This document shows, in pieces, positions 9,985 through 29,827 of a stretch of 64,000 bases of DNA. The stretch comes from Aquaspirillum serpens DSM 68 (GTDB lineage: Bacteria > Pseudomonadota > Gammaproteobacteria > Burkholderiales > Aquaspirillaceae). The translations under genes and the position numbers were made by a program. The notes beneath the pieces are model-generated. The model worked only from the letters and a program-made list of their open reading frames with translations, was not told the origin of the DNA and did no database searches. The stretch is taken from the NCBI RefSeq assembly GCF_000420525.1, contig NZ_ATVC01000006.1, positions 1 through 64,000 of the forward strand, written 5' to 3'. Within the stretch, counting starts at the first letter, position 1. Each line of letters opens with the position of its first letter.

Positions 9985-9987
9985 AAT

Positions 9988-10512: not shown

Positions 10513-10544
10513 TGCTTATCCAATCACAACAAAAAATGTCTTTA

Positions 10545-11531
10545 TTACACAATGCCGGCACGCAATAAATCGTGCATGGTGAGTGCGCCCAATAAACGCT
10601 GTTGTTCGTCACACACCAAGAGGCTGAATATTTTATGGGTTTGCATCAGTTGAACTGCTTCGGCTGCGAGACGATGCGGGGCGATGGTGCGTGGGCGGGT
10701 AGTCATCAATTCACCGACCAAAGTGGCGTGTACATCCGCATGATGATCGAGGGCGCGGCGTAAATCACCATCGGTGAACACCCCCAATAGCGTACCGTGC
10801 TGATCGGCCACTGCCGTCATGCCCAGCCCTTTACGGCTGATTTCCATTAACGCATCGCGTAACAGGGTGTCTGGTGCCACGACAGGCAGTGCATCACCTT
10901 GATGCATGATGTCTGAAACATGTACCAATAAACGCCGTCCCAAGCTACCGCCGGGGTGCGATAGCGCAAAATCTTCTGGCTGAAAGCCGCGTGCATCGAG
11001 CAACACCATCGCCAAGGCATCGCCGAAGGCTAAAGCGGCGGTGGTGCTGGTAGTGGGGGCAAGGTTGTGTGGGCAGGCTTCGCGGTCAACCGCTGCGTTC
11101 AGATGATAGTCGGCTTCTTTGGCGAGCGTGGATTGTGGCCGGCCAGTCATCGCTAATAAGGTGATGTTTTTACGGCATAGACTGGGGAGAAGGGCGACGA
11201 TTTCTTCTGATTCACCCGAGTTCGACAGGGCCAATACCACATCTCCATCGGTAATCATCCCCAAATCGCCATGTGCAGCTTCAGCCGGATGAATAAAAAA
11301 GGCTGGTGTGCCGGTTGAGGCAAGCGTGGCAGCAATTTTGCGTGCAATATGACCCGATTTCCCCATTCCCGTCACAATCACGCGACCTTGACACTGCAAG
11401 ATGGCTTCGATTGCGGCTAAAAAAGTGTGATCTAGGCGTTGTGCCAGCACGCGAATAGCGTCGGCTTCGGTATGTAATACCTCTTGTGCAAGATGGAGTC
11501 GGTGTTGGGCCAAAGAATCGAAGTCAGTCAT
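10545..11531 (-). CDS. kdsD: D-arabinose-5-phosphate isomerase KdsD/KpsF
   Basis: Converts ribulose 5-phosphate to arabinose 5-phosphate, the first step to Kdo. The 328-residue protein has an N-terminal SIS domain (VTGMGKSGHIARKIAATLAS, HPAEAAHGDLGMI, LALSNSGESEEIVALLP) and two C-terminal CBS domains (about residues 210-325). It includes the family's HPGGSLGRRLL linker. Length is normal. It is the first gene of the kdsD-kdsC-lptCAB run and diverges from the antiporter gene. Confidence 0.96.
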   Translation of the reverse strand: MTDFDSLAQHRLHLAQEVLHTEADAIRVLAQRLDHTFLAAIEAILQCQGRVIVTGMGKSGHIARKIAATLASTGTPAFFIHPAEAAHGDLGMITDGDVVLALSNSGESEEIVALLPSLCRKNITLLAMTGRPQSTLAKEADYHLNAAVDREACPHNLAPTTSTTAALAFGDALAMVLLDARGFQPEDFALSHPGGSLGRRLLVHVSDIMHQGDALPVVAPDTLLRDALMEISRKGLGMTAVADQHGTLLGVFTDGDLRRALDHHADVHATLVGELMTTRPRTIAPHRLAAEAVQLMQTHKIFSLLVCDEQQRLLGALTMHDLLRAGIV

Positions 11532-13651: not shown

Positions 13652-13673
13652 AATAATAGGGATTTTTTCAAAT

Positions 13674-14390
13674 CTACTCACGTAGGGAAACGAACTGGTT
13701 ATTCGGTCCATCTGACCGCAAGATCAGGTTTGCGCTGTTCGATACTAGGTAGGCCAGTGACTGTGTCAGCGTAAATGGGTACAGCACTGGTAGCGATTGC
13801 AGGCTCGGTACGGAAATGGGCTTGCCAGCGTAGCGCACCGCCGCTTCGATCAACCATGTGGTGAGTTCGTTGTTGTCGATGGACGTTGTTGCCAATCTGA
13901 TGATGCGTTTGCCTTTCTCGATGCGTTCGATCGCACCCCAGTTAGTCTGACTCTGGATGATCATATTGGTCATGCGTCGGGTGCCTTCGCGTTCCCCGTA
14001 GGTCTCGCTCATTCGGCGATGCACTTCGGCAGAAGTGCAATCCCCCTGAATCGCGGATAGCCGGCCCACCAGCTCGGTTACCTTGCCAAAAAATGGGTAT
14101 GTCGCCACGGACATGCCCCAGCACAGCGCGGCGACCGGCACGTTCGGATGCGTCTTGTGGATGGCCATGCCACGATCCGCGTAGTCGACCAGCTCGGCGC
14201 GGGGCTCCAGCCACAGCCGGTTCAGTACGGTGCGTGTTTTCTTCTTGGCTTCCGCGCCAAGTCCGGCTGCATCGAGCAGTGCATTCAGATCATCTAGTCC
14301 AGCCGCGCCAGCGCGAACATTCAGCGCCGCAGCCGCCCAATCAAGCTGAATGAACCGATCAAAGCCTATCTTTGGGGCTGATGAATTCAT
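13674..14390 (-). CDS. brxA: BREX-3 protein BrxA
   Basis: The last gene of the BREX operon. The 238-residue protein resembles the BrxA (DUF1819) family: an all-helical protein that in type 1 BREX binds DNA and has a NusB-like fold. Visible family-like stretches are TRTVLNRLWLEPRAELVDYA and VAALCWGMSVATYPFFGKV, and a C-terminal segment beginning YAGKPISVPSLQSLP. The start overlaps the pglZ stop (ATGA), so it is coupled. Its stop lies 22 bases from the convergent antiporter stop with no evident terminator between. Identification depends partly on position in the operon. Confidence 0.85.
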   Translation of the reverse strand: MNSSAPKIGFDRFIQLDWAAAALNVRAGAAGLDDLNALLDAAGLGAEAKKKTRTVLNRLWLEPRAELVDYADRGMAIHKTHPNVPVAALCWGMSVATYPFFGKVTELVGRLSAIQGDCTSAEVHRRMSETYGEREGTRRMTNMIIQSQTNWGAIERIEKGKRIIRLATTSIDNNELTTWLIEAAVRYAGKPISVPSLQSLPVLYPFTLTQSLAYLVSNSANLILRSDGPNNQFVSLRE

Positions 14391-16414
14391 TCGGTACCAA
14401 TCACATAACTGACTTTCACAAAGGGCACGATCAACTCTTCGATCGACACCCCGCCGTGGACTACCACCTGCTCGCCCTCAGGTACAAAGGCGGTTCGTCC
14501 GCCTGCGAATAGAGGCATGAAGTTCGCGGGTAGTCCAGCGATGTCCAACCTGACTGTGTTGGGATAGGTCGCAGTGGAATCGGCGAGCAATGGCTCGCTC
14601 CGATAGACCCGGACGCGTTCGCCGCGAGTCTCTGCAATGACGCCCTGATTGGGTCTGCCGACACCGGTGGATTCCACGTTGCCGTGGTCCGCCGTCAGGT
14701 AGATGTGGTATCCCTTGTCCAGCAATAACGAGAACAGCCGGTCGACGAAACCGGTCGTCAACCAGTTTCCGATCCACATCGCCACGTCCTTCTTCGATCG
14801 CTCCTTGTGGAGCCGGTCATCCACCTCATCGATGACCAAGCCCACCACCTTCGGGCGGCGGTCGATCAAATCTGCCTCCAGCGCGTCGAGCTGATGGGTA
14901 TGACGCAGCGCACGTCGATACATCACCTCATTCGCGTTGACGCCTTCGTTCTGCCAGTACGTTTTCCACAAGGATTCCTCCTTGTCCGTCCTGTCGATCG
15001 AGTCGTCGAACTCACGTGGCTTCAGGCTGGAAAACAGTGCCTGTCGCGATACTGATGTCACTGTCGGCAACCAGGCGAATACAGTGCCCTCATCAAATGC
15101 GAATCGCTTTGTGGTTGCAACAAGTCGTTCGCGGATCTGCACCCATTGATCAAACGCTAACCCGTCGAATACCAGTAGAGCGACCTTGTTTTCCCCTGCG
15201 GATCGTCGATGGCGCAAGAAGCGTGGCACGTGATGCACCATCACCGGTCCTTTGGTCACCGGCTGGAGGATCAGGTCAGCGTAATGCTTGGCCGCGACCC
15301 ATGCTTGCAGGCGCTCGTCTGACAGCACTTGTAAAACTTGGATGCGCTCTCGAATCAACTGTAAGTGTTCGCTGTCTTCCGTTCCTGGCAAAACATGCGT
15401 GCGGGCCAGGATCTCTCCGTAGCGCTTGGCGAATTCGCTCCATTCCTTGTGCGACGAGGCTGCCGTTGGGGTTGTCTCGATCAGGCCGTCGATGCCTTTG
15501 AGCACCAGGGTCTGCATTGCAGCGGGGTCCTGGACAATGCCGGCCTTGATCCAACTCGGTATCCCGGTCGCAACGCTGTGTACTGCCAGCGGATGCAAGC
15601 TACCATCGAGGAACATGGAGTCGACCAGTAGCTGCACATCAGAATGATCGAATGGTATCTCCACCTTGGCGATACCATCTGTTTCAAAATAGGCCTGTGG
15701 TGGCTCCGCTGTACGGGTACCATCCAGTCCCAATTTCGATAAATATCGGTACCACGCGTCCTGTACCACCCGTAGCAGCGCGCTCTTGGATGCCAGCCAG
15801 GTGGCGACGGGCAGATCCGTGAGCAGTCCCTTGCCTTGTATGACGCCTGCCGCATACTGAGCGAATGGGAGTGGCAAGGAACGGTTGGCAAAGTGCATCC
15901 GAAGCAGCTCACGCCAGAAGTCGATTGGGCTGCGAATCGACCTCGGCATCAATTGGTAGACATGTTCGAGGATGAAGTCCCTCGACTCGTTTTCTCCCCT
16001 GGCCGACTGCAGCTCGGTCTGATGGGCAAAAAACAACCCGGCTAAATGCTCTGGTTCTACTTGCTGTACTGCGCTATAGGTCAGCTTCGGGAATAGATCC
16101 GCAAGACTCAATCGAACCACACGTCCGTGGTACACGATGTCCCAAGGTAGCTCATTTGCATCGGCATTGCGCAGATGCAGAATCAGTGAGGGCGCTGGCC
16201 CGTGCTTACCGCGATCCCATGCAGCGCGGTAACGCTCCTCGTATTCCGCGCGGAAGGCAAACGGGTCCTCGTACAGCATCACCTCGAAGCCGCGACTGCG
16301 CAGCTCGGTCAACAGCCTCTCATCGAGCAACACATCATCAGGGTCGCACGCCACCCACAGCCGGGTGAGATCGGCCGTGAAGTCGCTGAGAATGCGTTCT
16401 GACCACTGGCTCAT
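14387..16414 (-). CDS. pglZ: BREX-3 alkaline-phosphatase-like protein PglZ
   Basis: Core component of every BREX type, a member of the alkaline phosphatase superfamily with probable metal-dependent hydrolase activity. In the 675-residue protein the metal-site motif KVALLVFDGLAFDQW is near residue 415, TSVSRQALFSSLKP is shortly after, and YHIYLTADHGNVESTGVG is near residue 575. It ends with HGGVSIEELIVPFVKV, typical of PglZ C-termini. Both ends overlap neighbours by four bases (brxHII upstream, brxA downstream). No truncation or loss of visible metal ligands is apparent. Confidence 0.93.
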   Translation of the reverse strand: MSQWSERILSDFTADLTRLWVACDPDDVLLDERLLTELRSRGFEVMLYEDPFAFRAEYEERYRAAWDRGKHGPAPSLILHLRNADANELPWDIVYHGRVVRLSLADLFPKLTYSAVQQVEPEHLAGLFFAHQTELQSARGENESRDFILEHVYQLMPRSIRSPIDFWRELLRMHFANRSLPLPFAQYAAGVIQGKGLLTDLPVATWLASKSALLRVVQDAWYRYLSKLGLDGTRTAEPPQAYFETDGIAKVEIPFDHSDVQLLVDSMFLDGSLHPLAVHSVATGIPSWIKAGIVQDPAAMQTLVLKGIDGLIETTPTAASSHKEWSEFAKRYGEILARTHVLPGTEDSEHLQLIRERIQVLQVLSDERLQAWVAAKHYADLILQPVTKGPVMVHHVPRFLRHRRSAGENKVALLVFDGLAFDQWVQIRERLVATTKRFAFDEGTVFAWLPTVTSVSRQALFSSLKPREFDDSIDRTDKEESLWKTYWQNEGVNANEVMYRRALRHTHQLDALEADLIDRRPKVVGLVIDEVDDRLHKERSKKDVAMWIGNWLTTGFVDRLFSLLLDKGYHIYLTADHGNVESTGVGRPNQGVIAETRGERVRVYRSEPLLADSTATYPNTVRLDIAGLPANFMPLFAGGRTAFVPEGEQVVVHGGVSIEELIVPFVKVSYVIGTE

Positions 16415-19239
16415 CCCACCTGTCCTCCGGGCATCATGCTGCCTCCGACGCGCACCATCATCACGGCATTTAAATCCGGCACACTGGCCTCCATGTCGTC
16501 CAAGGCGACCATGCGTGCATCGTGTTCCTGTTGCAGCCGCTTGCGCCGGTGCTCGCGCACGGCGGGCAGGCCGATTCGTCCAATCGCCTGACCTCGGGCT
16601 TCGAACGCATACAGCGCACGTTCGCGTTCTTCTTTCAGCCGGGCGCGGTGTTCGGTCAGCAGTTCGGTGAAGATCTGTTCACCTTGGGTGCTGGCAGCAG
16701 AATGCGATGCCTCAAACCACTTCACCGATTCCCCTGCGCCCGTCACGGCGTGCACGTCTACGGTCTCAGTAAGCAACAGATCCCAGACGCGCTTGGCGGT
16801 CGGCATGAAGGATCGACCTTCCTCGTTGATGAACACCGGCAGGAAGCGCTTCCGGCTCAAGCCTTCAGCAGCCAGACTGATCTCCCACAACGACCAGATA
16901 CCGCGCACCGAATCCGGTAGACCAGAAACACGGATCACCGGTAGCGGCTGGCCGGCCACAAAGCGTGGCAGCTCGCTGATCACAGCTCGGGCGCGTGGGT
17001 CTTCCATCGTGACCCATTCCAACTCTGGATTCTCATCCGCTGTGCGGGCGTCGAAACAGGCCTGTGGCGATTCGCTACCGTCGGCCCACTTCACCCGCCA
17101 CGCCTTCCCAACCTTGGTAGCCGAGCCGCCGCGCGCAGCCAATCCGCTGGTGATAGCGCGCTCCAGCCAGAACTGCGCCGGGTGGTCACGCCACTTACGG
17201 GCGTCGTCGGTATCAAGATTGTGTTCGGTGGTGAGCAGATCGCTGTTCTTCTTCGACTCCGCCAGCGTGGATCGAAGCTGCGACACCACCGCATCGCACT
17301 CCTGTTCAATGGCGTCTGGATTTTGTAGACCATGTACGAATAGTTCGTCGAAGATTGGATCGGCCTCAACTGAATCCATTACGTCCGCAGCCTTGTCGAC
17401 GCCGAACTCTTGCGCAATGACCTCGAGCTTTTCTTCCAACACCTGGCGCACGCGATGCTCGACGGTGTCCTCAAGCACGAAGTTGATCGCACGCACCACA
17501 TGCTTCTGTCCGATACGATCCACCCGACCAATGCGCTGTTCGATCCGCATCGGGTTCCACGGCATGTCGAAGTTGACGATGATGTGGCAGAACTGCAGGT
17601 TCAGACCTTCACCACCGGCATCTGTCGAAATCAGTACGCGCACATTTTTGGAGAATACTTGCTGCGCACGCGTCCGGGCTTCGAGATCCATACGGCCATT
17701 CAGCACCGTCACCGAGAAGCCACGGCTCTCCAAGAAATCGGCCAGCATAGCTTGCGTAGGTACGAATTCGGTGAAGATCAGCACCTTCAGCGTCGGGTCG
17801 CCTTCCTCCTGCTGCAGCTTGTAGATCAGCTCCAGCAGCGCCTCGGCTTTGGTATCGGTGCCTGCGGCTTCGGTTTCCCTCGCAAGCTCCAGCAGCATCT
17901 GGACTTCAGACTTTTCCAGCTCCAAACCGCTGGACTGTATGACTAGATCTACCTGGGACTGGCCGTCCAGCTCTGCCCACTCATCTGCGTTGGTGTTTTC
18001 AAACAGATTAGCCTGAGGCTGCGGTGCATCGAGCAAAGCTTGGCGCTTCTCCAGCGTGGTGCGGATGGCTGCTGTGCTTGATGTCACCAGCCGTTGCATT
18101 AGGATCATCAGGAAGCCGATGTGGCGCTGCTTGGCCGCCATGGCCTGGTTGTAGCCGTGGCGCACATAGTCGGTTACCGCCTCATACAGGCGCCGTTGTG
18201 CGCCATGCCGTGCCTGCCAGGCCACCGCCTGCAGCCGGGTAATACGCGGCTTGAACAGCGGTTGGCCCTCGGCATCGATGGACACACGCTTTTCGGTGCG
18301 AATGACGAAGGGCCGTACCCGGTCGCAGCTGACGCTGCTCTCATCCGGGAAAGATTCACGGTCCAGCAGTTGCATCAGCCGCATGAATTGGTCGGTCTTG
18401 CCTTGGTGTGGTGTGGCGGAAAGCAGCAACAGATAGGGCGAGGCCTCCGCCAGCGCAGCGCCCAGCTTGTAGCGGGCCACCTGTTCAGTGCTACCGCCCA
18501 TGCGGTGGGCCTCGTCGATGATGACCAGATCCCACGACGCCGAGACCAGGTCCTCGAAGCGCTCGCGGTTGTAGGTATTCAGTTGCGCCAGACTCCAGCC
18601 ACGACGACTTTCCATTGGCTTCACCGAATCCAGCGAGCAGATTACCTGGTCATGCATGCGCCACAGGTTTTCTTCTTCACCGGCGCCACCGCTGCGCCAC
18701 TGCCGGAAGGCTGCCAACTCAGATGGTTCGATGAACTGGAACTTCTCGCCGAAGTGCAGGCGCATTTCCGTTTGCCACTGGCGCACCAGTCCCTTGGGCG
18801 CCACCACCAGGATACGCTTTACCCTGCCACGCAATTTCAACTCGCGCAGCACCAAGCCCGCCTCGATGGTCTTGCCGAGGCCCACCTCATCAGCCAGCAG
18901 GTAGCGAATGCGGTCGCGGCTCACCGCGCGGTTCAGCGCATAGAGCTGGTGCGGCAGCGGTACCACGCTGGACTGGATCGGTGCTAGCAACAGATTGTCT
19001 TCCAGCGCGTCGAGCAGCTTGGCCGCCGCCGTGGTGTGCAGAATCTGCTCCACGCTCGGGCGCACGCTTTCCAGTACAGCAAGATCTGCTGCTCGGGCAC
19101 GTAAAACGGTGTCCTTGGCCGGCAACCAGACGCGATAGGTAACTTCGCCCCACACGTCCTGCCGCTCGATTACGCGGCACGGCGATGCCTGCCGGGTGAA
19201 CCAGCACCATTCACCGATGGTGAAACCGCTCTCGGACAC
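16411..19239 (-). CDS. brxHII: BREX-3 SNF2-type helicase BrxHII
   Basis: A 942-residue superfamily 2 helicase/translocase characteristic of type 3 BREX. Motif I is LADEVGLGKTIEAGLVL (near residue 116), motif II VIIDEAHRMGG (near 245) and motif III LLLSATPHQGKTD. The C-terminal helicase domain has STDAGGEGLNLQFC and RIEQRIGRVDRIGQ (near 573). A helical C-terminal region follows. The start is GTG, abutting the stop of the TOPRIM-like cargo gene with a 2-base space; the end overlaps pglZ. The gene is G+C rich (68% on one counted line), unlike the cargo genes just upstream of it. Confidence 0.93.
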   Translation of the reverse strand: MSESGFTIGEWCWFTRQASPCRVIERQDVWGEVTYRVWLPAKDTVLRARAADLAVLESVRPSVEQILHTTAAAKLLDALEDNLLLAPIQSSVVPLPHQLYALNRAVSRDRIRYLLADEVGLGKTIEAGLVLRELKLRGRVKRILVVAPKGLVRQWQTEMRLHFGEKFQFIEPSELAAFRQWRSGGAGEEENLWRMHDQVICSLDSVKPMESRRGWSLAQLNTYNRERFEDLVSASWDLVIIDEAHRMGGSTEQVARYKLGAALAEASPYLLLLSATPHQGKTDQFMRLMQLLDRESFPDESSVSCDRVRPFVIRTEKRVSIDAEGQPLFKPRITRLQAVAWQARHGAQRRLYEAVTDYVRHGYNQAMAAKQRHIGFLMILMQRLVTSSTAAIRTTLEKRQALLDAPQPQANLFENTNADEWAELDGQSQVDLVIQSSGLELEKSEVQMLLELARETEAAGTDTKAEALLELIYKLQQEEGDPTLKVLIFTEFVPTQAMLADFLESRGFSVTVLNGRMDLEARTRAQQVFSKNVRVLISTDAGGEGLNLQFCHIIVNFDMPWNPMRIEQRIGRVDRIGQKHVVRAINFVLEDTVEHRVRQVLEEKLEVIAQEFGVDKAADVMDSVEADPIFDELFVHGLQNPDAIEQECDAVVSQLRSTLAESKKNSDLLTTEHNLDTDDARKWRDHPAQFWLERAITSGLAARGGSATKVGKAWRVKWADGSESPQACFDARTADENPELEWVTMEDPRARAVISELPRFVAGQPLPVIRVSGLPDSVRGIWSLWEISLAAEGLSRKRFLPVFINEEGRSFMPTAKRVWDLLLTETVDVHAVTGAGESVKWFEASHSAASTQGEQIFTELLTEHRARLKEERERALYAFEARGQAIGRIGLPAVREHRRKRLQQEHDARMVALDDMEASVPDLNAVMMVRVGGSMMPGGQVG

Positions 19240-19241
19240 GC

Positions 19242-19895
19242 CTAAATAGCCTCCGCAACCAAGCGCCGTAGTCCATCGCGCAGCTTGCCAAAGCTGGGGG
19301 AAATGTTGCGATCAGGCTCCAAAAGCGGCCCGATCTTCTCCGCCCATTCGTGTTTTACCTGCCCCGGCAAAGGCCAGCCCGCTTTCTTGATCGCGGCTGA
19401 TCCACCGGGGTAAATCGCATCAGCCAGCATCTCCCAAGTACCGCAAACACTGTCCTGGATATAGCGTTGCAGCACATCGACCTTGGCTTTCGGGTAGGCT
19501 GCTGTGAGTGCTTGTTGGTCACCAAAATACCAAGCCTCCATTTCCTCGATAGCGATACGAAACAAGGTATTCGGTTTTCGATTGCAGCTTGCTGCCAATG
19601 CTTTCAGTTCTGCTAAAAAATCGACACAATTTTTCCGGTCGGAGTCAAGCACGACCACCACGGCATCGATACCCGGCGTTTTGCCATAGCCACTTAGCAG
19701 CTTGGGCAACTGATTCAGAAGAATTCGTTTGGCGGGGTCACCTCCTGCGTTCAGGTTTTTTGGGATACGCCCTATTCCTTTATAACCATGAATCCGCCAG
19801 GTATGCGGATTGCTATACGCGCCGAATAATTTAGGCAACAAAGCCTCTAGCAGCTTCTCACCAGAAGCATCCTCTACAAGTATCTCAATGTGCAT
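19242..19895 (-). CDS. Putative TOPRIM-like nuclease (DUF4276-like), partner of AAA ATPase
   Basis: A 217-residue protein with the acidic pattern of a TOPRIM domain: an N-terminal glutamate in ILVEDASGEKLLEALLP (E8), a hydrophobic strand ending in the D-x-D pair VVVVLDSDRKNC (D84, D86), and further acids in AIEEMEAWYFGD (E117-E120). DUF4276 proteins look like this and are often next to AAA ATPases. The arrangement recalls OLD and PARIS systems, where an ABC-like ATPase controls a TOPRIM nuclease, here as separate chains. It starts 2 bases after the ATPase stop and ends 2 bases before brxHII. One counted line has 40% G+C, far below brxHII. Nuclease activity is an inference. Confidence 0.7.
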   Translation of the reverse strand: MHIEILVEDASGEKLLEALLPKLFGAYSNPHTWRIHGYKGIGRIPKNLNAGGDPAKRILLNQLPKLLSGYGKTPGIDAVVVVLDSDRKNCVDFLAELKALAASCNRKPNTLFRIAIEEMEAWYFGDQQALTAAYPKAKVDVLQRYIQDSVCGTWEMLADAIYPGGSAAIKKAGWPLPGQVKHEWAEKIGPLLEPDRNISPSFGKLRDGLRRLVAEAI

Positions 19896-19897
19896 GC

Positions 19898-21127
19898 TTA
19901 CCTCGTTTCGAGATAGTCGCTGTACCAGAGCCCACCAAGCGGGAGTCCTTCGGCGACAAGGTTTTTGACGATCTCCAGCTCAGAAACCCGGCGAATGGTC
20001 GAGTAGCCATCCTGCCCCTTTTCCAGAATCCATACCTCTTCTGGCGACAGCGCATCCACAAAATATGGCTGATGTGTCGTTACAAAAATCTGTGGCGCAT
20101 TCTTCTTGCCTGTTGCGTGGCTACGAAATTCCTGTGCCAGCGACTCCAGCAGCTTGTGGTATAGGCCGTTTTCAGGCTCCTCGATGCAAACGAATGGGGG
20201 CGGCTCTGGGTCCTCCAGCAGCAACAGATACGCAAATACTTTCAGTGTTCCATCCGACATTTGCTGTGCAAAAAACGGGTCGTTGAAAGCGCCATCGTTG
20301 AACCGCAGCAACACACGTTTGTCAGCAGTCACCTCGGTATCAATTTTGGCAATACCCGGAATTTTGCTGGCAATGCGCGCCAGGATACTTTTGAAGCGAT
20401 CCTTGTGCTCACGCTCCATGAACTGCACCACATTGCCGATGTTGTCACCATGCACATTCAAGTGACGCTGCGGCCCTGCGCTGGGCAGGCTGCGTGCTGC
20501 ATCAGGATAAAAATAGGAGAGGTACCAGCCCTTCAGAAAATCCCGAAACCGCTTGATACGCGGATGTTCCTTCAGTGTGCCCAGCGTAGCAATGCCAAGC
20601 TGGCGCGGATCTGTCAGTTCGACTACCGCCTGTGTGCGATCTTCCTCACCTTCAATCTCCACAGCTTCTTCGCCCGCCCAGACTGAACCCTTGCCATTGA
20701 TTAAGCGCAGGAACGGAAAAGGCTGCCCGTGCTTGGCGCCCTTGCGGCGTTGCTTAAGCACCTCGGATTCAACATAAGGGCGACCCGATTTATCCAGTCC
20801 AATTGAAAGCTGATAAGTGATGGGACGTTCTTTTGATGCCTCACGGTAATAAATTTCGAAGCGAATCGGCTCCTGCACGCCTTTCGACCTTAAGCGTTCA
20901 AAACCGCCACGCTGTTTCATGTCGCAAGCAGTTTCGACATCTGTTGCCAAGCAATCCGCGACAAAGCCAAAAGCATCGAACAGCGAGCTTTTTCCCACGC
21001 CGTTCTTGCCGATGACTACTGTGAAAGGAGTCAATGGTTCCCCGTGTGTTTGCCCCGATAGTTTGCCTATTGAAACGTCCCGCAAGGCTCGAAAATTTTG
21101 TACTCGGAATCCTTCTATGATGGCCAT
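19898..21127 (-). CDS. AAA/ABC-like ATPase (OLD/AAA_21 type) of the second cargo module
   Basis: A 409-residue ATPase of the SMC/RecF-like AAA_21 group. It opens MAIIEGFRVQNFRALRDVSI, has Walker A GKNGVGKS at residues 40-47, and the combined signature/Walker B region PFVCIEEPENGLYHKLLES near residue 325, followed by the H-loop IFVTTHQPYFVDAL. There is no fused nuclease domain; the partner TOPRIM-like gene follows after 2 bases. It abuts the stop of the upstream PD-(D/E)XK-like gene directly. By analogy with OLD and PARIS it probably senses a phage signal and releases or activates the nuclease. The counted line has 52% G+C, between the BREX core and the TOPRIM-like gene. Confidence 0.85.
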   Translation of the reverse strand: MAIIEGFRVQNFRALRDVSIGKLSGQTHGEPLTPFTVVIGKNGVGKSSLFDAFGFVADCLATDVETACDMKQRGGFERLRSKGVQEPIRFEIYYREASKERPITYQLSIGLDKSGRPYVESEVLKQRRKGAKHGQPFPFLRLINGKGSVWAGEEAVEIEGEEDRTQAVVELTDPRQLGIATLGTLKEHPRIKRFRDFLKGWYLSYFYPDAARSLPSAGPQRHLNVHGDNIGNVVQFMEREHKDRFKSILARIASKIPGIAKIDTEVTADKRVLLRFNDGAFNDPFFAQQMSDGTLKVFAYLLLLEDPEPPPFVCIEEPENGLYHKLLESLAQEFRSHATGKKNAPQIFVTTHQPYFVDALSPEEVWILEKGQDGYSTIRRVSELEIVKNLVAEGLPLGGLWYSDYLETR

Positions 21128-21649
21128 TTAGTTCTCCTTTTCTCGGCTGACTCTACTGGCAGGTATATCTGTCAGGGTTCTATTCCAGGCCGCAAAATTC
21201 ATCACTGCACAACCAGCCACAAATGGCTTTTTCCATGGCCGATTATTGGGGCCCTCTACAGGTAGCTGGCGCTTCAAGGCTTCAGTGCGGGTCAACAAGT
21301 CCGCGTCAGATAACGAACTGGCTCCAATCAACACCAGATAGTAAATGGGCTTCTTCGCCCGCCCTTCGGCGTACTCGTATAGCCACGAATCCCGATATTT
21401 GGTCTTGAGGTCGCTATCAATGGCTCCACTCATGAATTTCTTGAGGAAGGCTGCTCTGTCCTTGGGATTGGCGTTTGGATTGTCTGGGTCCTTGAACTCA
21501 ACAAAGAGTGTCCTGTCTGCCAGCTCAATAATAAAGTCCACCGCTTTCATACAATGACTCAGGCCGTGGCTCGTTTCATCATCAAACTTACGGCCCGTTA
21601 TGCCTGTGGGCAGAGATATTTGCAGATCATCTTCGGCGAGCACAGTCAC
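21128..21649 (-). CDS. Putative PD-(D/E)XK-like nuclease, partner of AAA ATPase
   Basis: A 173-residue protein not recognised as a named family. It shows a nuclease-like core: a strand with D38 in KAVDFIIEL, then E51 and K53 in TLFVEFKD, spaced as in PD-(D/E)XK folds. A later hydrophobic strand is KPIYYLVLIGASSL. It is read from a GTG that overlaps the upstream ATPase stop (GTGA), so it is almost certainly translated with that ATPase and acts with it. Cleavage of DNA or RNA is an inference from the motif alone; a non-catalytic role cannot be excluded. No signal peptide or membrane segment is visible. Confidence 0.6.
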   Translation of the reverse strand: MTVLAEDDLQISLPTGITGRKFDDETSHGLSHCMKAVDFIIELADRTLFVEFKDPDNPNANPKDRAAFLKKFMSGAIDSDLKTKYRDSWLYEYAEGRAKKPIYYLVLIGASSLSDADLLTRTEALKRQLPVEGPNNRPWKKPFVAGCAVMNFAAWNRTLTDIPASRVSREKEN

Positions 21650-22680
21650 AGCTTGATTCCTCCGAGACTGCGCTTGAGTTCGCGGTCATAGAGATTACTG
21701 AATGTTGCCGCAATTGCATTAGGATCAACGCCCAGATAACTATCACTGGCTTTGGAAAAAACAGCTCCCGACTCATCACGGAATAGTGATAGGTAGCGAA
21801 TTTGGTCATCTTTCTGCTTGCGTAAGTCAAACTCTTTAAGCAAGACATAGTTATGAGTTGTCAGGAATACCTGCACGCCCATGCGCTGCAACTCTAGGAT
21901 CACCTCGACCACTTCGCCCATCAAAGCGGGATTCAGGTTGGCTTCAGGTTCATCCCAGAACAGCACCGAGCCCGATAGCAAGGTGCCGTTCTGGATCAGC
22001 AACCAGATCAAGGCCAGCTTACGCATGCCTTCGGCCAACAGGGTGAACTCGAGATCACCCTGCTTGTTCTTGAGGAAAAAGTGTTCGCCTTTTGCAACCA
22101 CCTTGCCATCAATAGCTTTCTGTAGCGCCATCAGTAAGCGTTGACGATCTTTGTCCGCAGGTCCCATCAATTTGGGCAGGAAGGCTCGCTTGATGATGTC
22201 CACGTAGACCTCTTCAAAGGCGATTTCCCGCTTGGCTGCCGTTGCCAGGAATCCTGGCGCATGAGCGAGCATCTCCTTGACTGGGATGTAGGCGCTGCCT
22301 AGCTCGTCCTTGGTCCAGGCAGTTACGCCTGTGACTTTCACATCGTCCGGCTTGTTAGTGTGATTGGAGAACTCAGCAGATATTTTTGCGCCACCTTCAC
22401 GGGTTACCACCGCCTTGGTTTTGACGCTAGTTGATTGCCGGCGCGCCAGACGACCCATCCGGCCCTCATAAGGGTTAAATACGTTGCGCAGCTTGAGCGC
22501 AAAGCCCTTTTCTTTGTCTTCACCCACGGTCACGGCGCACGCCGCGTACAGCACCTTGAGCAAGTGAGTCTTGCCCGTGCCATTCTCTCCAATAATGATG
22601 TTTACGCCTTGCGAAAACGCTTGATCCAGCCCAGCAAAGGATGTGAAGTTATCCAGCTTGATGTGCGTGATCTTGCTCAT
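21646..22680 (-). CDS. AAA/ABC-like ATPase of the first cargo module
   Basis: A 344-residue RecF/SMC-like ATPase. It begins MSKITHIKLDNFTSFAGLDQ with Walker A GENGTGKT at residues 31-38. The middle holds an insertion with basic residues (GRMGRLARRQSTSVKTKA). Then come the signature-like LLAEGMRKLALIWLL, Walker B SVLFWDEPEANLNPALM and the H-loop VFLTTHNYVLLKEF. It overlaps the pglXI stop by four bases (ATGA) and the PD-(D/E)XK-like gene by four (GTGA), so it bridges BREX and cargo. It is not closely similar to the second ATPase of the island: different length and different insertion. A regulator of the adjacent putative nuclease is the simplest reading. Confidence 0.83.
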   Translation of the reverse strand: MSKITHIKLDNFTSFAGLDQAFSQGVNIIIGENGTGKTHLLKVLYAACAVTVGEDKEKGFALKLRNVFNPYEGRMGRLARRQSTSVKTKAVVTREGGAKISAEFSNHTNKPDDVKVTGVTAWTKDELGSAYIPVKEMLAHAPGFLATAAKREIAFEEVYVDIIKRAFLPKLMGPADKDRQRLLMALQKAIDGKVVAKGEHFFLKNKQGDLEFTLLAEGMRKLALIWLLIQNGTLLSGSVLFWDEPEANLNPALMGEVVEVILELQRMGVQVFLTTHNYVLLKEFDLRKQKDDQIRYLSLFRDESGAVFSKASDSYLGVDPNAIAATFSNLYDRELKRSLGGIKL

Positions 22681-25454
22681 AGTCCATCCTCGGTCCGGGT
22701 CAGGGCCATGTCATAGAGGGTGAGCAGTTTTTCGTCTTCTTGCAGTGTTTCGTCTGGCAGCTTGTTGGCGATGTTGATGATCGTTGCGTAGTCTTTGGCT
22801 GCCCACGCAGCGCGGAAACCGGCGCGCAGCACTTCAAGTCGCGACTCTTTGATCTTTCGTCCAGTGAAAGCCTTGTAGGTCTCGAACTCCTTGAGCAGCG
22901 CCTTCTCGCGCTTTTTCTCCAGGTCCTGCGCCTTGTTTGGATCAGGCACGTACCAACGGTCCTTGGCCTTGGCGACTAGCGCTGGGTCACTCTTGTCGAG
23001 ACCGCGCTGGTCTTTATGGTTCGAGGAGAGATAGCTGTGGATCTGGCTGGGCACTTCACCAGTGCCGTCGTAACGCAAGAAGTTGTCCTCAAGCAGCTGG
23101 TCCAACTCCGGAATGATCTCGCCCTTGCGCTTGGCCGACCCGATCTGCGGGATGTACTCGGGGTGAATCTCCGACCGAGTCGATGGGCGCTTGAGCAGGA
23201 AGTTGGTCAGCCAGTCGATGGCACTGCGTTCGTCGGAAACGAACAACTCTGCCTGCTTCACCTGCGGGATACGCGACCTTGCCTTTTCGTACTCGACCAG
23301 TTGATCGGGCAAGAACACCATGCCATCCATCTCGCGGAAACGAACGGGCAGCTCAGCCAGAAACTCCGGCGTCGAGACCGGCACCATCGTGCCGTGGCGG
23401 ATGAACCAAGACGCCATGCGGTCGTAGATGCGACGTGGATCACGTTCGACGATATTCAGAAGCTCCTGCGGGTAGCCGGACGTGACTTTCACAGCAGGCA
23501 GTTGCTTCAAGTGCGTCTGTACGAAGTCCCAAGCCGAATCCACGGTCGGGCCATCGCGATTGAATCTGTCTTCGAGGCCGCCGTTTGGCTTGTACGCAGA
23601 GATCACCAAATCCTGCTTCACAGCCGTCGCAGACGTGACTTGGCGGTAGCTGCCTTGCACCTTATCGAGTGCCGTTACCTCAGCCACCACAAATCCCGCT
23701 TGCTGCAATGCGACTTGGATAGCGTTCCAAACGGCAGCTTTGCTGTTAGAGAACACAACTGTCATCCAACGCCCTGGCTTCAAAACGCGGTGGTATTCGT
23801 TAAAGCATTGTTGCATTAGCTGTTGATAATCAGGCAATGCCTTTTTCTTGCACCTATCAATAATTGCTTCTGGCTTTGCGTCTGTTGTTACTCGATGCCA
23901 CGCCTCAGTCATGAAATTTAGGTCCGCATAGTAAATATTTTCGCCAAAAGGAGGGTCTGTGAAAACATAATCAATGGACGCAGATGGCAGTCCTGTGTTT
24001 GCTGCAGTGCCAGTTGTGACAATGGCGTTATGTTCTTTGCGAAACTCTTGAAACGTCGAAACCAGTCGCTTTAGCTTTCCAGAGAGTACGTACCATGGAC
24101 TCAATTCTGAGTGCTGAGATGGCACGTAATAAATGCCCTTCATGTATTGTGATACTTGAGAAAAGCCAGACGGCCGATATGAGTTGCAAACAGACATAGT
24201 CCAAATTGACTGCTCAACGAGGAACAGAAGCATTTCACGGATTCGGACATCTGCATTTGCCCGCGCCTTCTCCCACAAAGAACCAATTGCGTGCAAAGCC
24301 CGGGGCAAGAAAAAATGATGGACTCGGGTGATGCCCGAATAGTCCATTCTTGCGCGTTCATGCGTCATGTGCATCATCGGCAACTCCATTGATGGAATTG
24401 ACGAAGGAGGAGTAAGTTTCTCAATACGTGCCAGTATTTCTCCGTCGCTCTGGTCTGGGGATTTTTGATACTTCTCTTTGCCAATCGCGTAAACAATGAG
24501 TGCCGCTTCCCGCTTTGGACTTTGTATCGTTTCGCCTGTTACAACATCCTTTTCAGAAACAAACAATCTCTCCATCCGTTGCTTGTTGAGCTCAACTCCA
24601 CAATGAGGGCACGGAAAGGAATCTCGCACGCGCTGACTATCGACATCGTATGCTTCTTGGACAAAATTTACGTTCCCTGCGCAATCTGGGCAGCTGTATA
24701 TCTGACTCCAAACGGTGTATTCGATACGCCCCTTTGTCTTGCCGTCCGTGTGAAGCGTCTCGTACATCCATCCAATTTCACGTTCGACTTCTTTGAGAAG
24801 GTCTTGCCCCGTTTTAGCGAAAGCTTCGATGTCAAACGGCAGGTTGTAGTTGGCTGCGATGAAGGTGGCTGCTGGCGATAGGTCGTTGAGGATGACGCGC
24901 CGGGCTCCCCACTTGGGCGCGGTTTTGCCTTGCTTCTTCCATTCGGTTTCCAGCTCATGCCGATAGGCTGAAGGCGCCGATCCGCACCACTGAGCCGCAA
25001 CGCCGGTCATGCCGGACCCGCAAAAACCGTCCAGCACGATGTCGCCCGGCTCGGTGTAATGCAGGATCGACGGCACGATCGCGAGGTGCGGAACCTTGGT
25101 GTGGTACGAGTGCGCCTTGTAGATCGGATCGGTCTTGCCGACCGAGACGTCGATCGTCTGCGGCTCGCGGCTGTACTTCACGCTCGGGTCGTATGGCTTG
25201 CCGTAGTGACGCACGAAGTCTTCGAGGAAGGGATTCGGGCACGCGGTGTAGTACGGTGGGTCCGACATCGCCAAGATGGCCTCGTCCGTACCCTGCGGAA
25301 ATCCTTCGATCTTGCGAAACGCCGGATCTTTCAGCTTCTCGGCCAGCAGCTTGGTGAAGTGCTCGCGCCGTGCTTGTTCGCTGGGGAATGTCTGGCCAAG
25401 GCATTCGACCGGGCCGGTCGAGCCAGTTTTTTGGCCGTGCAGTAAATCGTTCAT
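22677..25454 (-). CDS. pglXI: BREX-3 adenine-specific DNA methyltransferase PglXI
   Basis: Marks host DNA so BREX does not attack it and is also needed for defence. The 925-residue protein has a DPPY motif near residue 65, the S-adenosylmethionine site DIVLDGFCGSGMTGVAA near 140-150, a zinc-ribbon-like pair (CPDC near 255 and CPHC later), and a DPPFGENIYYADLNF motif near 500. The ATG at 25454 is chosen for its GAGGAA ribosome-binding site; a TTG at 25469 would add five residues. Base composition shifts sharply inside the gene: about 23750-24790 has lines of 40-47% G+C, while both ends have lines of 62-70%, suggesting recombination of the central third. Confidence 0.92.
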   Translation of the reverse strand: MNDLLHGQKTGSTGPVECLGQTFPSEQARREHFTKLLAEKLKDPAFRKIEGFPQGTDEAILAMSDPPYYTACPNPFLEDFVRHYGKPYDPSVKYSREPQTIDVSVGKTDPIYKAHSYHTKVPHLAIVPSILHYTEPGDIVLDGFCGSGMTGVAAQWCGSAPSAYRHELETEWKKQGKTAPKWGARRVILNDLSPAATFIAANYNLPFDIEAFAKTGQDLLKEVEREIGWMYETLHTDGKTKGRIEYTVWSQIYSCPDCAGNVNFVQEAYDVDSQRVRDSFPCPHCGVELNKQRMERLFVSEKDVVTGETIQSPKREAALIVYAIGKEKYQKSPDQSDGEILARIEKLTPPSSIPSMELPMMHMTHERARMDYSGITRVHHFFLPRALHAIGSLWEKARANADVRIREMLLFLVEQSIWTMSVCNSYRPSGFSQVSQYMKGIYYVPSQHSELSPWYVLSGKLKRLVSTFQEFRKEHNAIVTTGTAANTGLPSASIDYVFTDPPFGENIYYADLNFMTEAWHRVTTDAKPEAIIDRCKKKALPDYQQLMQQCFNEYHRVLKPGRWMTVVFSNSKAAVWNAIQVALQQAGFVVAEVTALDKVQGSYRQVTSATAVKQDLVISAYKPNGGLEDRFNRDGPTVDSAWDFVQTHLKQLPAVKVTSGYPQELLNIVERDPRRIYDRMASWFIRHGTMVPVSTPEFLAELPVRFREMDGMVFLPDQLVEYEKARSRIPQVKQAELFVSDERSAIDWLTNFLLKRPSTRSEIHPEYIPQIGSAKRKGEIIPELDQLLEDNFLRYDGTGEVPSQIHSYLSSNHKDQRGLDKSDPALVAKAKDRWYVPDPNKAQDLEKKREKALLKEFETYKAFTGRKIKESRLEVLRAGFRAAWAAKDYATIINIANKLPDETLQEDEKLLTLYDMALTRTEDGL

Positions 25455-25501
25455 CCGTTCGTTCCTCAAATTCTTGTTGTCATGGTCGAGCGTTCACCGT
25501 G

Positions 25502-28500
25502 TCACTCGATCACGAAGCGCAGCTTGGTGGCATCCTTGCCCTTGCAGCGCTCGTTCATGAAGGTGTCGAAGCGCTTGCGCAGGTCGTCCGGTGTGGCCGG
25601 CGAGCCGCCTTGCAGCAGTGCCTGCTTGATCTCGTCGCCCTTGACCGCGATCTTCTCCAGCCCCGACAGCGCCTCTTGCACGGCATTGGCAAACTCGGTC
25701 GTCATCGGGTCCGGTAGCTTACGTGAGGTTAGGAAGGCATCGATCAACTGCTTGGACGCGGGCGCCAACAAGCCCAGGCTGTCCTGCGTGAACGGGTCTT
25801 CCAGGTTTTCCAGCAGGGTCTGCTGCCAGTTTGCCAGCAGTTCGTCCAGATCATCATCCAGCTTGTGCAGGCGATTGGCCGCCGGGATCAGCTCCAACTG
25901 CTCGGCGGACGGACGGAACTGGCAGTGCGGGCAGACGGCGGTCGTGACCAGCGTCGGCTCATCTAGCGAGGAACAGCTCTTCAAGCCGTTGAGCGACTCC
26001 TCGAAGGCGGTGAGCTGGCTGGTGGGCATCAGCGATACGCCGGCCAGCACGCGCAGCGCCAGCAGACGATTGTCCTTGCGCAGGGCGTTGCGGGTTTTGT
26101 CCTCTGCCACGCCCAGCCGCGCCTTACTGTGGCTAGCGATGTAGGCGGTGATGTAGTCCTTCTTGAGCTGGTTGAGCGTCTGCCGGTATTCAGAAGCATT
26201 GGCACCTGTGCGGTCCTGGCTCAGTTTGTCCTGCAGTGCTTTGCGTGCCGCCTCGGCCTGCTTCACCCACGGGTGCTCGGTAGGCAGCACCATCTCGGCC
26301 TGTGAGAGATAAGACGCAGTGCTGCCCAGTTCCACTACCAGTTCGAGCAGACGCTCGACGGCAGCCAGGATCTCCAGATTCTTTTTCTGGCCATCGAGGT
26401 CTTCCTGTGTAACGCGCAGGTTCTTGAGCTTGCCGACGGTGTTGTACGGTGCCAGCGATTCGGTGAACTTCTTCAGCGAGTCAAGCCGCGCGTACCAGTC
26501 TCTGGCTTCTTCTTCCCGCAGCAGGCTCTGCCCCCAGAAGCTGAGTTTTCCTTGTTGCAGATTGGAAGCAGCCTTGAGCACACGCGGCACCAGCGCGCTG
26601 ACTTTCTCCTGCAACTTGATCACCGGCTCGGTATCGCCCTGGCTGGCCTTTTGGGCCAGGCCAGACGGCAGGTCGAACAACTCGAACAAAGCGCGTAGCA
26701 CCGCAAGGTTGATTTCCTTGGGTGACTCGATGTGCTTGAACTGCTTGAGTTCCTCCAGCGAGCGTTCTGCCAGTTGCGCCAGCTTGCCGGAGTCGATCTT
26801 GTCGCCAGTGATCGACAGCACGATGTCGCCGGAATAGACCAAGCTACCCAAAACCACGACCAGCAGATCGGGTTCTAGCCGGTACTTGATTGGGGCGAAA
26901 TACTCAATGTCTAACGTGCCCGACAGCAGTTCGCTGCGGTTGAGTACTTGGCCATGACCCTTGGCTTTGAGGCGGCTAAGCACCTCCTGCGCGTAGCGGG
27001 AGTTGGCTGGGTCGATGCGGTCACCGTCGAGCAACTCCAAGGCATCGAGGATAGCTAACGCATCCTTGGTGCGCGTGCCGCCCGCCAGTGTCCGCAGCGC
27101 GTTGCCTATCAGTTGTTTACGGTTGGCTTCAGTCACCAGCACCGAGAAGGTGGGGTATTCCGGCGAAAGATCGACGAAGCGCTGGCCGAGTGCCAGGCCG
27201 GAGACGATGTTCACCACGTCGCGGAAGTTGATGCGTTCGTCGGCACCGAGCCGCGCGCGGTCGCGCAGGGACACGCCTTTGGCCCACTCCTGCAGATTCT
27301 TCTTCTTGCCCTGATAAGTGACCTCGAAGGCGGTCATCTGCTTTTCCTGCAGCCACTTGCTCATGGCGCGTAGCGAGTCCTGGGCCTTGGACAGGTAGAT
27401 GGCCTTCGCCCCACCGCTAGCGGTGGACGCCAGATCCAGCGCCGCCGCGTATTGCGACAGGTAGCGCTTGTAGTCCTCGTCCGGTGACTTCAGGCGGAAG
27501 AACACTTCGTCGGCCAGGTTGTTGTCGCTGAACTTCGGCTTGTCGAAGGGCTGGATGAAGTAGATGTAAAAATCGCGCTCCGGCTGGGCCGTGGGACGGT
27601 CATTCGGTGCGCCAAAGAACAGGTAGCCCATGCGCTCGACGCGGCGCTCCTGCCACTCGATCTGGTACTGCCAAATTTGGAAGCCGGGGTAACGCAGATC
27701 GTCGCTGCACTCCATCAGTGCCTTGATTGCACTGTAATAGGCGCGGTCGAGCGCGTCGTCAGATAGGACTTCAGCGCGCTTATCGATCTGCGCGTCGTAG
27801 TCGATGTCTTTCTTGAGGTCGAGGTAGTATTGCTCGGTGTCCGGTGCCTTGGAAATGAATTGGCCGTTGACGGTTTTCAGCACTTCCCGCAGCACGGTCT
27901 GTACCATCGACAACAGGTTCTCCGCCGGATCGCCCGGCATGTCCTCCACGCCTGGCTGGAATAGACACAAGGTATCCCGTAGCTCGGCAGCTGTAGGGCC
28001 AATCGGTACATGGATGTCACCGCCTGTGGTCAGCCGGTGCACGGCCAGCGCATTGATGACCCGCAGTGCCATGGCTTTATAAGCCGGGCGTGTAAAGGCC
28101 TGCTGCACGCGGGATTCCAGCACTTCAGATACGCGCATGACTTCCTTGATATTGGGGTCCGCGCGCAGAACCGAGTTTGCCTTGAGGTTGTTCCAGAAGC
28201 TCTCGTAGCTGATGAACAGCGGCTTGTCTGCGGGCACTTCCTGGTCGAGGATGGCCAGCATGGCCGCCTCAATGGTCTTGAGCGCACCGCGCTTCTCGGT
28301 GAAGTGGATCTGCTCGAATGTCTTCAGGTAGTCCGGATGCACCGGGAACAGCCGCACGTACTCGTCCATGCGCTCGTTCATGGAGCCATAGAACTTGGCG
28401 AACGGCGTAAGGTATTCGCGGATTTTGTTCTGCTGGTCGGCTGACTTCTTGAGCAGGCGCGCGGAGACGACAAAGCTGACGTCCTGGCGGTCGATCAGGA

Positions 28501-29242
28501 TTTGCGTGAAGCGTTCGTGTACGCGGCGCATGCTGTCGGCGACGTGCTGGAAGCGCACACTATCGAAGATGGCTTCCTGCACACCGGCCACGAAGCGGAA
28601 CTTCAGGTGCTTGGTGACTTCACCGATCTGACGCAGGATGGCCAGATCCTGCACAAGTTCGTGATCGCGACGGGACTGCAGGTACTCCAGGAACTCATCA
28701 ACAACGAGTAGCAGCCCCTGATCCGGGTAGCCTTCATTGAAGGCTGCCATCATCTCCTCGAAGGAGTCCTTGTTGTTGAGCTCTTTGTCGGCGGTCGGGA
28801 ATGTGTAGTTGACGCCCAGCTTTTCGAGGAAACGCTCAAGCTGCAGGGTAATGATCTGGCGCAGCGGCATTTGCAACCCGCCGACCTCGATGCGTAGTAC
28901 CTTGAAGCGACCAGCGATTGGGGCAACCGCCTCGGCAACCTTGGGGTGGCGGATTATCGGCGCATAGGCGGTGTCTTCAGCTACCAACGACAGTACCGAC
29001 ATCAAGTGCGACTTACCGGTGCCGTAGTTGCCGACGATGAGCACGCCCTTGTGATCGACCGATTCGTCGAAACTGAGTTGGGGAACCATGAGCTTTGAGA
29101 TCCGCTCGGCCATGTCGTCGGAAATGACGTAGGTCGCGACGAGCTTCTTGGCCTCGTCTGGACGTCCGGCATCGAGCAACTGAATCACTGATTCGATTTG
29201 CTCGAACTGGATCAGATCTCCGTATTTCATGTTCTTGGCCAT
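25502..29242 (-). CDS. brxC: BREX-3 P-loop ATPase BrxC
   Basis: The large AAA+ ATPase found in all BREX systems, 1246 residues here. Walker A GNYGTGKSHLMSVLS is near residue 75 and Walker B GLLLVVDEFLEYLQSRRD near residue 178. A long C-terminal region with probable coiled coils follows, and a CPHC pair lies near the end (TAVCPHCQFRPSAEQLE). The start at 29242 (MAKNMKYGDLIQFEQIESV) is preferred because a GGGAGAGAG ribosome-binding site precedes it; the longer frame to 29317 overlaps brxF. It precedes pglXI by 47 bases, the only sizeable gap in the operon apart from the 34 bases after brxF. Confidence 0.93.
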   Translation of the reverse strand: MAKNMKYGDLIQFEQIESVIQLLDAGRPDEAKKLVATYVISDDMAERISKLMVPQLSFDESVDHKGVLIVGNYGTGKSHLMSVLSLVAEDTAYAPIIRHPKVAEAVAPIAGRFKVLRIEVGGLQMPLRQIITLQLERFLEKLGVNYTFPTADKELNNKDSFEEMMAAFNEGYPDQGLLLVVDEFLEYLQSRRDHELVQDLAILRQIGEVTKHLKFRFVAGVQEAIFDSVRFQHVADSMRRVHERFTQILIDRQDVSFVVSARLLKKSADQQNKIREYLTPFAKFYGSMNERMDEYVRLFPVHPDYLKTFEQIHFTEKRGALKTIEAAMLAILDQEVPADKPLFISYESFWNNLKANSVLRADPNIKEVMRVSEVLESRVQQAFTRPAYKAMALRVINALAVHRLTTGGDIHVPIGPTAAELRDTLCLFQPGVEDMPGDPAENLLSMVQTVLREVLKTVNGQFISKAPDTEQYYLDLKKDIDYDAQIDKRAEVLSDDALDRAYYSAIKALMECSDDLRYPGFQIWQYQIEWQERRVERMGYLFFGAPNDRPTAQPERDFYIYFIQPFDKPKFSDNNLADEVFFRLKSPDEDYKRYLSQYAAALDLASTASGGAKAIYLSKAQDSLRAMSKWLQEKQMTAFEVTYQGKKKNLQEWAKGVSLRDRARLGADERINFRDVVNIVSGLALGQRFVDLSPEYPTFSVLVTEANRKQLIGNALRTLAGGTRTKDALAILDALELLDGDRIDPANSRYAQEVLSRLKAKGHGQVLNRSELLSGTLDIEYFAPIKYRLEPDLLVVVLGSLVYSGDIVLSITGDKIDSGKLAQLAERSLEELKQFKHIESPKEINLAVLRALFELFDLPSGLAQKASQGDTEPVIKLQEKVSALVPRVLKAASNLQQGKLSFWGQSLLREEEARDWYARLDSLKKFTESLAPYNTVGKLKNLRVTQEDLDGQKKNLEILAAVERLLELVVELGSTASYLSQAEMVLPTEHPWVKQAEAARKALQDKLSQDRTGANASEYRQTLNQLKKDYITAYIASHSKARLGVAEDKTRNALRKDNRLLALRVLAGVSLMPTSQLTAFEESLNGLKSCSSLDEPTLVTTAVCPHCQFRPSAEQLELIPAANRLHKLDDDLDELLANWQQTLLENLEDPFTQDSLGLLAPASKQLIDAFLTSRKLPDPMTTEFANAVQEALSGLEKIAVKGDEIKQALLQGGSPATPDDLRKRFDTFMNERCKGKDATKLRFVIE

Positions 29243-29276
29243 ATGGTTCTCTCTCCCACGCAGTTTCTTAATTCGG

Positions 29277-29750
29277 TCAAATTTCGAGTACGACCACGCC
29301 GTCACGGCTGTAGTCACGATGTTCTGGATGGCTCATGTCCGCGTACACCAAGCGGTCGCCGCGCAGCTCGCCAGGCCAGACGGCCACGACAGGTTTGGCA
29401 TGAGCCAACCGCCTGACGAGGTCAAGCGGGTTAATCTGTAGGCTGGGCTCGAACAACAACTCGAGGTTGTCGAGCAGCAGCAGGTTTTCAGTGCGTTCCC
29501 TGTCTGCCATCTCCCGCAGGAGCTCACCGGCAGAAAAACCACGCTTGCTGTTCGGGGTGGCTGCGAGCCGTCGTCCCAAATCCAAACCGACGTTGAGCGG
29601 CTCGATGTTGAGCTTGGTGCCCAGTTGACGTAGCAGTTGGGTCTTACCGCTGCGGCTGGGACCGACCAGCATGACCAGTTTGCTGTTGAGGTCGCCGATT
29701 TCTCCAATGAGTTGTTCAAGCTTTGCTAGTGATTGGTCGTCGGCCATCAT
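29277..29750 (-). CDS. brxF: BREX-3 P-loop protein BrxF
   Basis: A small P-loop NTPase specific to type 3 BREX and the first gene of the operon. The protein of about 157 residues has Walker A MLVGPSRSGKTQLLRQLG near residues 26-40, a hydrophobic strand and acid in LLLLDNLELLFEP, and ends HRDYSRDGVVVLEI. The start is set at the ATGATG at 29747-29750 because the upstream extension to 29816 (rich in Thr, Pro and Arg) does not resemble the family. The ribosome-binding site is weak. Role in defence is not known in detail. Confidence 0.88.
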   Translation of the reverse strand: MMADDQSLAKLEQLIGEIGDLNSKLVMLVGPSRSGKTQLLRQLGTKLNIEPLNVGLDLGRRLAATPNSKRGFSAGELLREMADRERTENLLLLDNLELLFEPSLQINPLDLVRRLAHAKPVVAVWPGELRGDRLVYADMSHPEHRDYSRDGVVVLEI

Positions 29751-29827
29751 GGGAGTTGTGGTTGATGTTGTCTGGGGACAGCGCCTTGTAGATGGCCTGT
29801 ACAGGAAGCATTCCAAGATCGCATTTT

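Follow-up and report, generated by a model that had tools for sequence, protein, structure and literature searches.

PtuA is an ABC ATPase that is paired with a nuclease in Septu and in retrons, and in the two-gene PtuAB module of Septu, which is also the effector of retron Eco7/Ec78, this separate nuclease is the HNH protein PtuB. Lamassu likewise combines a Rad50-like ATPase with a separate effector, which can be a PD-(D/E)XK protein, and control of the effector by the ATPase has been proposed (PMC10586767). The Lamassu ATPase LmuB is a coiled-coil protein of about 650 residues in which the Walker B Glu is usually replaced by Gln, and the effector LmuA has an extra C-terminal domain (PMC10586767). 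In OLD and in GajA of Gabija a TOPRIM nuclease is fused to the ATPase, while PARIS (AriA-AriB) and HEC-01 consist of an ABC ATPase and a small partner, which is a DUF4435 protein in the case of AriB and a DUF4276 protein in the case of HEC-01B. The label HEC, for Hma-embedded candidate, comes from a guilt-by-embedding study that PMC12988326 and PMC10855318 cite as Payne et al. 2024 (bioRxiv 10.1101/2024.01.29.577857); according to PMC12988326, antiviral activity was seen for several HECs, HEC-06 among them. No statement on the function of HEC-02 or HEC-01 was found in our literature search, which left out the HEC preprint; as far as the searched literature shows, the mechanism of HEC-02 is undescribed and the pair is catalogued as a candidate.

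The window analyzed here is a 64,000-nucleotide stretch of the Aquaspirillum serpens DSM 68 genome (contig NZ_ATVC01000006.1). Positions 13674-29816 form a single co-directional array of ten genes in the order BrxF-BrxC-PglXI-HEC-02A-HEC-02B-HEC-01A-HEC-01B-BrxHII-PglZ-BrxA (Table 1). Pfam, PADLOC and NCBIfam together identify the complete set of type III BREX genes, BrxF, BrxC (DUF6079), PglXI, BrxHII, PglZ-3 and BrxA, and two further gene pairs are embedded in this host operon. Housekeeping genes flank the array, namely those for a Na/H exchanger, a SIS-CBS protein, LptC, an LptA/D-like protein and sigma-54 on one side, and an AsmA-like gene with a tRNA-Gly on the other. The BREX_3_BrxF match begins only at residue 31 of its open reading frame, and the true start of BrxF probably lies downstream of the listed TTG.

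Table 1. Positions of the BREX genes and of the embedded gene pairs in the window.
Feature	Position	Strand	Product and start	Assignment or evidence
HEC-02A	21646..22680	(-)	344 aa, ATG start	ABC-type (Rad50/SMC/PtuA-like) ATPase
HEC-02B	21128..21649	(-)	173 aa, GTG start	predicted PD-(D/E)XK nuclease
GTGA 4-nt overlap, HEC-02A stop/HEC-02B start	21646..21649	(-)		from sequence
HEC-01A, second ABC ATPase	19898..21127	(-)		PADLOC HEC-01A E=8e-194
HEC-01B, DUF4276 partner of HEC-01A	19242..19895	(-)		PADLOC HEC-01B E=2e-97; Pfam DUF4276
BrxF, type III BREX	29277..29816	(-)		NCBIfam BREX_3_BrxF E=1.6e-50
BrxC, type III BREX (DUF6079)	25502..29317	(-)		PADLOC BrxC E=0; Pfam DUF6079 E=0
PglXI, BREX methyltransferase	22677..25469	(-)		PADLOC PglXI E=0
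BrxHII helicase, type III BREX	16411..19239	(-)		PADLOC BrxHI/BrxHII E=0
PglZ, BREX-3 type	14387..16414	(-)		NCBIfam BREX_PglZ_3 E=8.5e-217
BrxA	13674..14390	(-)		PADLOC BrxA E=6e-71

The first-pass annotation had described the ATPase and its 173-aa partner as a possible new two-gene system, with no mention of the type III BREX operon around them or of the second ATPase-partner pair beside them. This part of it has to be withdrawn, because both proteins match an existing candidate of PADLOC-DB v2: the HEC-02A model covers residues 3-340 of the 344-aa protein (E=4e-128) and the HEC-02B model residues 1-168 of the 173-aa protein (E=6e-64). The pair is thus a member of HEC-02, inside a type III BREX operon. 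As in the PADLOC description, both genes are present, with HEC-02B adjoining HEC-02A; the overlap of the GTG start with the ATPase stop that had been noted before is exact, the two codons sharing the GTGA that is read on the minus strand from 21649 to 21646. A further 4-nt overlap joins the start of HEC-02A to the stop of PglXI, and HEC-01A starts directly after HEC-02B. HEC-02 was named for its embedding in Hma, whereas its host operon is type III BREX here and type I BREX or neither elsewhere. We treat the embedding in Hma as a matter of how HEC-02 was discovered rather than of its definition, PADLOC calling HEC-02 from the two proteins. What is new here is the fold assignment of HEC-02B and the recognition that type III BREX operons have slots for exchangeable ATPase–nuclease cargo.

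HEC-02A matches Pfam AAA_21, with Walker A at residues 31-38, an invariant Walker B (W242-D-E-P245) and the switch at T275-H276. Its alignment has 29 invariant columns, among them Walker A, the intact DE of Walker B and the switch histidine. The AlphaFold2 model (pLDDT 88.7) superimposes on the heads of SMC, Rad50 and PtuA with Z values of 17.7-20.8, and Foldseek ranks PtuA, from the PtuAB complex of E. coli Septu, first (E=4e-14), in agreement with the RecF/SMC-like ATPase expected earlier. At 344 aa, HEC-02A leaves no space for a long coiled coil, a TOPRIM domain or an HNH domain.

For the 173-aa partner, no family match was obtained in Pfam, PHROGs or NCBIfam, and the sole match among PDB sequences was a ferritin (E=0.45). 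The AlphaFold2 model, built from an alignment of 74 sequences, is nevertheless confident (pLDDT 92, pTM 0.88). Foldseek alone gave no match at E<=0.001 to this model in the PDB or BFVD, and the fold family became clear only when the 1000 best PDB chains of Foldseek were re-aligned. Restriction-endonuclease-like folds then came out on top, with middling Z values of 5-6.6 over 110-130 residues: BstEII 6.6, N.BspD6I 6.5, Cdn1 6.2, EcoO109I 6.2, Can2 5.8, McrC 5.8 and FokI 5.6. Judged by their titles, the first 23 rows are all what we take to be restriction-endonuclease-like folds; since the Z values are middling, the argument rests on the consistency of this list.

The first-pass annotation had placed D38 and E51-x-K53 in strand-like contexts and had anticipated that they would cluster in a model of the protein. 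DSSP assigns strands 39-42 and 47-53 of the model to one hairpin with its turn at 43-46, and D38 should therefore lie opposite E51, with K53 at the end of the second strand. Read in this inferred register, the three residues cluster on a single β-hairpin in the PD-(D/E)XK layout. Three D..(D/E)xK combinations occur in HEC-02B, but D38/E51/K53 is conserved to 99%, compared with 35% and 23% for the others.

How much of this conservation is due to the way in which the homologues were collected? The 80-locus set had been seeded on peptides that include HCMKAVDF, and ascertainment accounts for part of the perfect conservation seen there for H32-F39. The invariance of HCMKAVDF (74/74) was discounted as seeding bias once a set based on HMM searches had been collected.

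This unseeded set was gathered by searching 398 genomes of the phylum with an HMM, one further locus being added, and contains 17 full-length homologues with 29-73% identity to HEC-02B of the window. In these, E51 is kept in all 17, D38 in 16 (one Asn) and K53 in 16 (one Arg), while H32, C33, M34 and A36 vary, which argues that the motif is more than chance. K84 and W155 are likewise present in 17 of 17; both belong to the further conserved residues of HEC-02B, together with E6, D23 and E42. At the level of prediction, the conserved residues and a confident model that resembles PD-(D/E)XK nucleases support HEC-02B as a small PD-(D/E)XK nuclease, as the earlier reading of a PD-(D/E)XK-like partner had proposed. 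The HEC-02 candidate thereby gains a predicted effector activity and three putative catalytic residues that are open to testing.

A comparison with the named systems sets the pair apart from each of them. HEC-02 shares with Septu the two-gene arrangement of ABC ATPase and separate nuclease, but PtuB is an HNH nuclease, whereas HEC-02B is PD-(D/E)XK-like in motif and predicted fold and matches no PtuB model. LmuA is among the fold neighbours of HEC-02B (Z 4.8 on re-alignment), yet HEC-02A is only 344 aa long and keeps an invariant E244, and HEC-02B is a single-domain protein, unlike their Lamassu counterparts. In contrast to OLD and GajA, HEC-02A ends at residue 344 and has ATPase matches only. 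HEC-02B has no AriB or DUF4435 match (Pfam, PADLOC) and belongs to another family than HEC-01B. The impression that the small protein is not a named effector of OLD, Gabija, PARIS or Septu was thus well founded: in PADLOC it matches HEC-02B models only.

The pairing of the two genes is conserved. Of the 24 loci found by HMM search, a few of which come from the same genome, 23 have an HEC-02A homologue next to HEC-02B on the same strand, as do almost all loci of the pattern-found set of 80; most homologous loci have the -4 overlap, usually with an ATG start of HEC-02B. The hosts differ. By tblastn, type III BREX genes are present in 18 of the 80 pattern-found loci and type I BREX genes in 6, the type I membership being confirmed by PADLOC, while neither type is found in 30 loci that extend for at least 8 kb to each side; the neighbours of several stand-alone copies are mostly without a known defence gene (PADLOC). 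On the Methylomonas koyamae plasmid pLM6, HEC-02 lies between brxC and pglX of an operon annotated as BREX-1, and the Sphingobium plasmid pTomMM15c has the pair in the matching position of a BREX-like operon. Occurrence is patchy (2 of 274 genomes of the class, 20 of 398 of the phylum), and no relatives were found in phage records. Because the genes stay together both within the two types of BREX and outside them, HEC-02 is a portable cargo module that is probably autonomous.

Two loci have a restriction gene next to the pair: in L009 (2965-5796) HEC-02 directly adjoins a type IIG restriction-methyltransferase gene, and in L026 (10462-13593) it overlaps a type I restriction-enzyme-like gene. 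BREX is therefore not the sole neighbour of HEC-02.

The tie between an ABC ATPase and a small nuclease without a recognition domain suggests that HEC-02A controls HEC-02B, by analogy with PtuA and PtuB of Septu and with the control proposed for Lamassu. We consider the following account of the whole the likely one: HEC-02 is a defence cargo in which a PD-(D/E)XK nuclease is held by an ATPase and released upon a phage cue. With ATP bound, HEC-02A probably acts as a dimer or a larger assembly. In the uninfected cell it would bind HEC-02B and hold the nuclease inactive. A phage cue, perhaps DNA ends, structures of replication or repair, or the depletion of ATP, would alter the state of HEC-02A, upon which HEC-02B would be freed or assembled. 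The active nuclease would then cut DNA and bring the infection to an end, perhaps with loss of the cell.

Could HEC-02 instead be an accessory of BREX, for which we know of no established nuclease? It would then not be autonomous and would supply the missing cut on DNA that PglX has left unmethylated. Such a role would fit the place of the pair, which in the window follows PglXI and precedes BrxHII, with start and stop codons that overlap, and which in type I BREX has BrxC on one side and PglX on the other. However, the 30 loci in which no type I or type III BREX gene is found within the flanks, and the type III BREX operons that lack HEC-02 and have other genes in the same slots, speak against it, and we regard this reading as unlikely; since copies without BREX exist, a BREX-dependent role is unlikely as a general rule. 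Similarly unlikely is a version in which HEC-02 is wired to BREX where the two occur together: HEC-02A would be triggered by the state of PglX methylation or by the machinery of BrxC and PglZ, HEC-02B would be the missing nuclease of these particular operons, and stand-alone copies would use another cue.

The resemblance of HEC-02A to Rad50 and SMC heads would also be consistent with a device for DNA repair or plasmid exclusion, of the SbcCD/Rad50-Mre11-like or Wadjet-like type, rather than for anti-phage defence. We give this little weight: HEC-02A is without the long coiled coil, its partner is PD-(D/E)XK-like and not of the Mre11 type, and the patchy occurrence of the pair and its place inside BREX are more in keeping with defence, although patchiness is also compatible with plasmid exclusion. 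As for HEC-02B itself, likeness of fold does not establish the substrate, and the strictly conserved K84, W155 and D23 could serve another activity, such that the protein might be an RNase or an inactive, structural subunit. That is improbable in our view, as the three putative catalytic residues are retained across deep divergence and the nearest folds are mostly DNA nucleases.

The defence cargo that we favour is not the only module carried by type III BREX. HEC-02 and HEC-01 of the window both lie between PglXI and BrxHII, and in locus L001 HEC-01 comes before HEC-02, opposite to the order in the window (HEC-01 at 19242-21127), which argues that the two modules are interchangeable. In L006 and L007, HEC-01 sits between BrxC and PglXI, and the same place is taken by Septu PtuA-PtuB (13501-15419) in L114, a type III BREX operon without HEC-02. 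Given these placements, pairs of an ATPase and a partner can be accommodated in at least two slots of type III BREX. In L112, also without HEC-02, another gene (9685-11184) fills the PglXI-BrxHII slot. BREX operons are thus suggested to be carriers of ATPase-plus-partner modules that can stand in for one another, namely HEC-01, HEC-02 and Septu. This has a bearing on the way in which defences become layered and on whether cargo supplies the DNA cutting that is seemingly absent from BREX.

Other genes were seen in or near these positions. The product of the L112 gene (9685-11184) has 499 aa, no assigned family and a weak PD-T7-3 match (E=6e-7). By eye, a small PIN-like ORF lies between PglXI and BrxHII of L114 (9927-10337), and VapBC-like toxin-antitoxin ORFs lie between BrxC and PglXI of L115 (14128-14975), an HEC-02-bearing type III BREX operon. 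Large genes of 620, 634 and 820 aa are inserted between BrxC and PglXI in L004 (2432-6188) and L022 (2550-5012); they have no PADLOC match and are unclassified cargo of BREX III. In L060 (8310-10258), BrxC breaks off near residue 565 and continues as HEC-02B from residue 88, PglXI and HEC-02A are gone and HEC-01 is present; the junction is either a deletion in the BREX operon or an assembly join. Finally, a gene for a 574-aa protein with a weak match to an Argonaute model (E=1e-7) lies between BrxC and HEC-02A in L041 (6205-7929).
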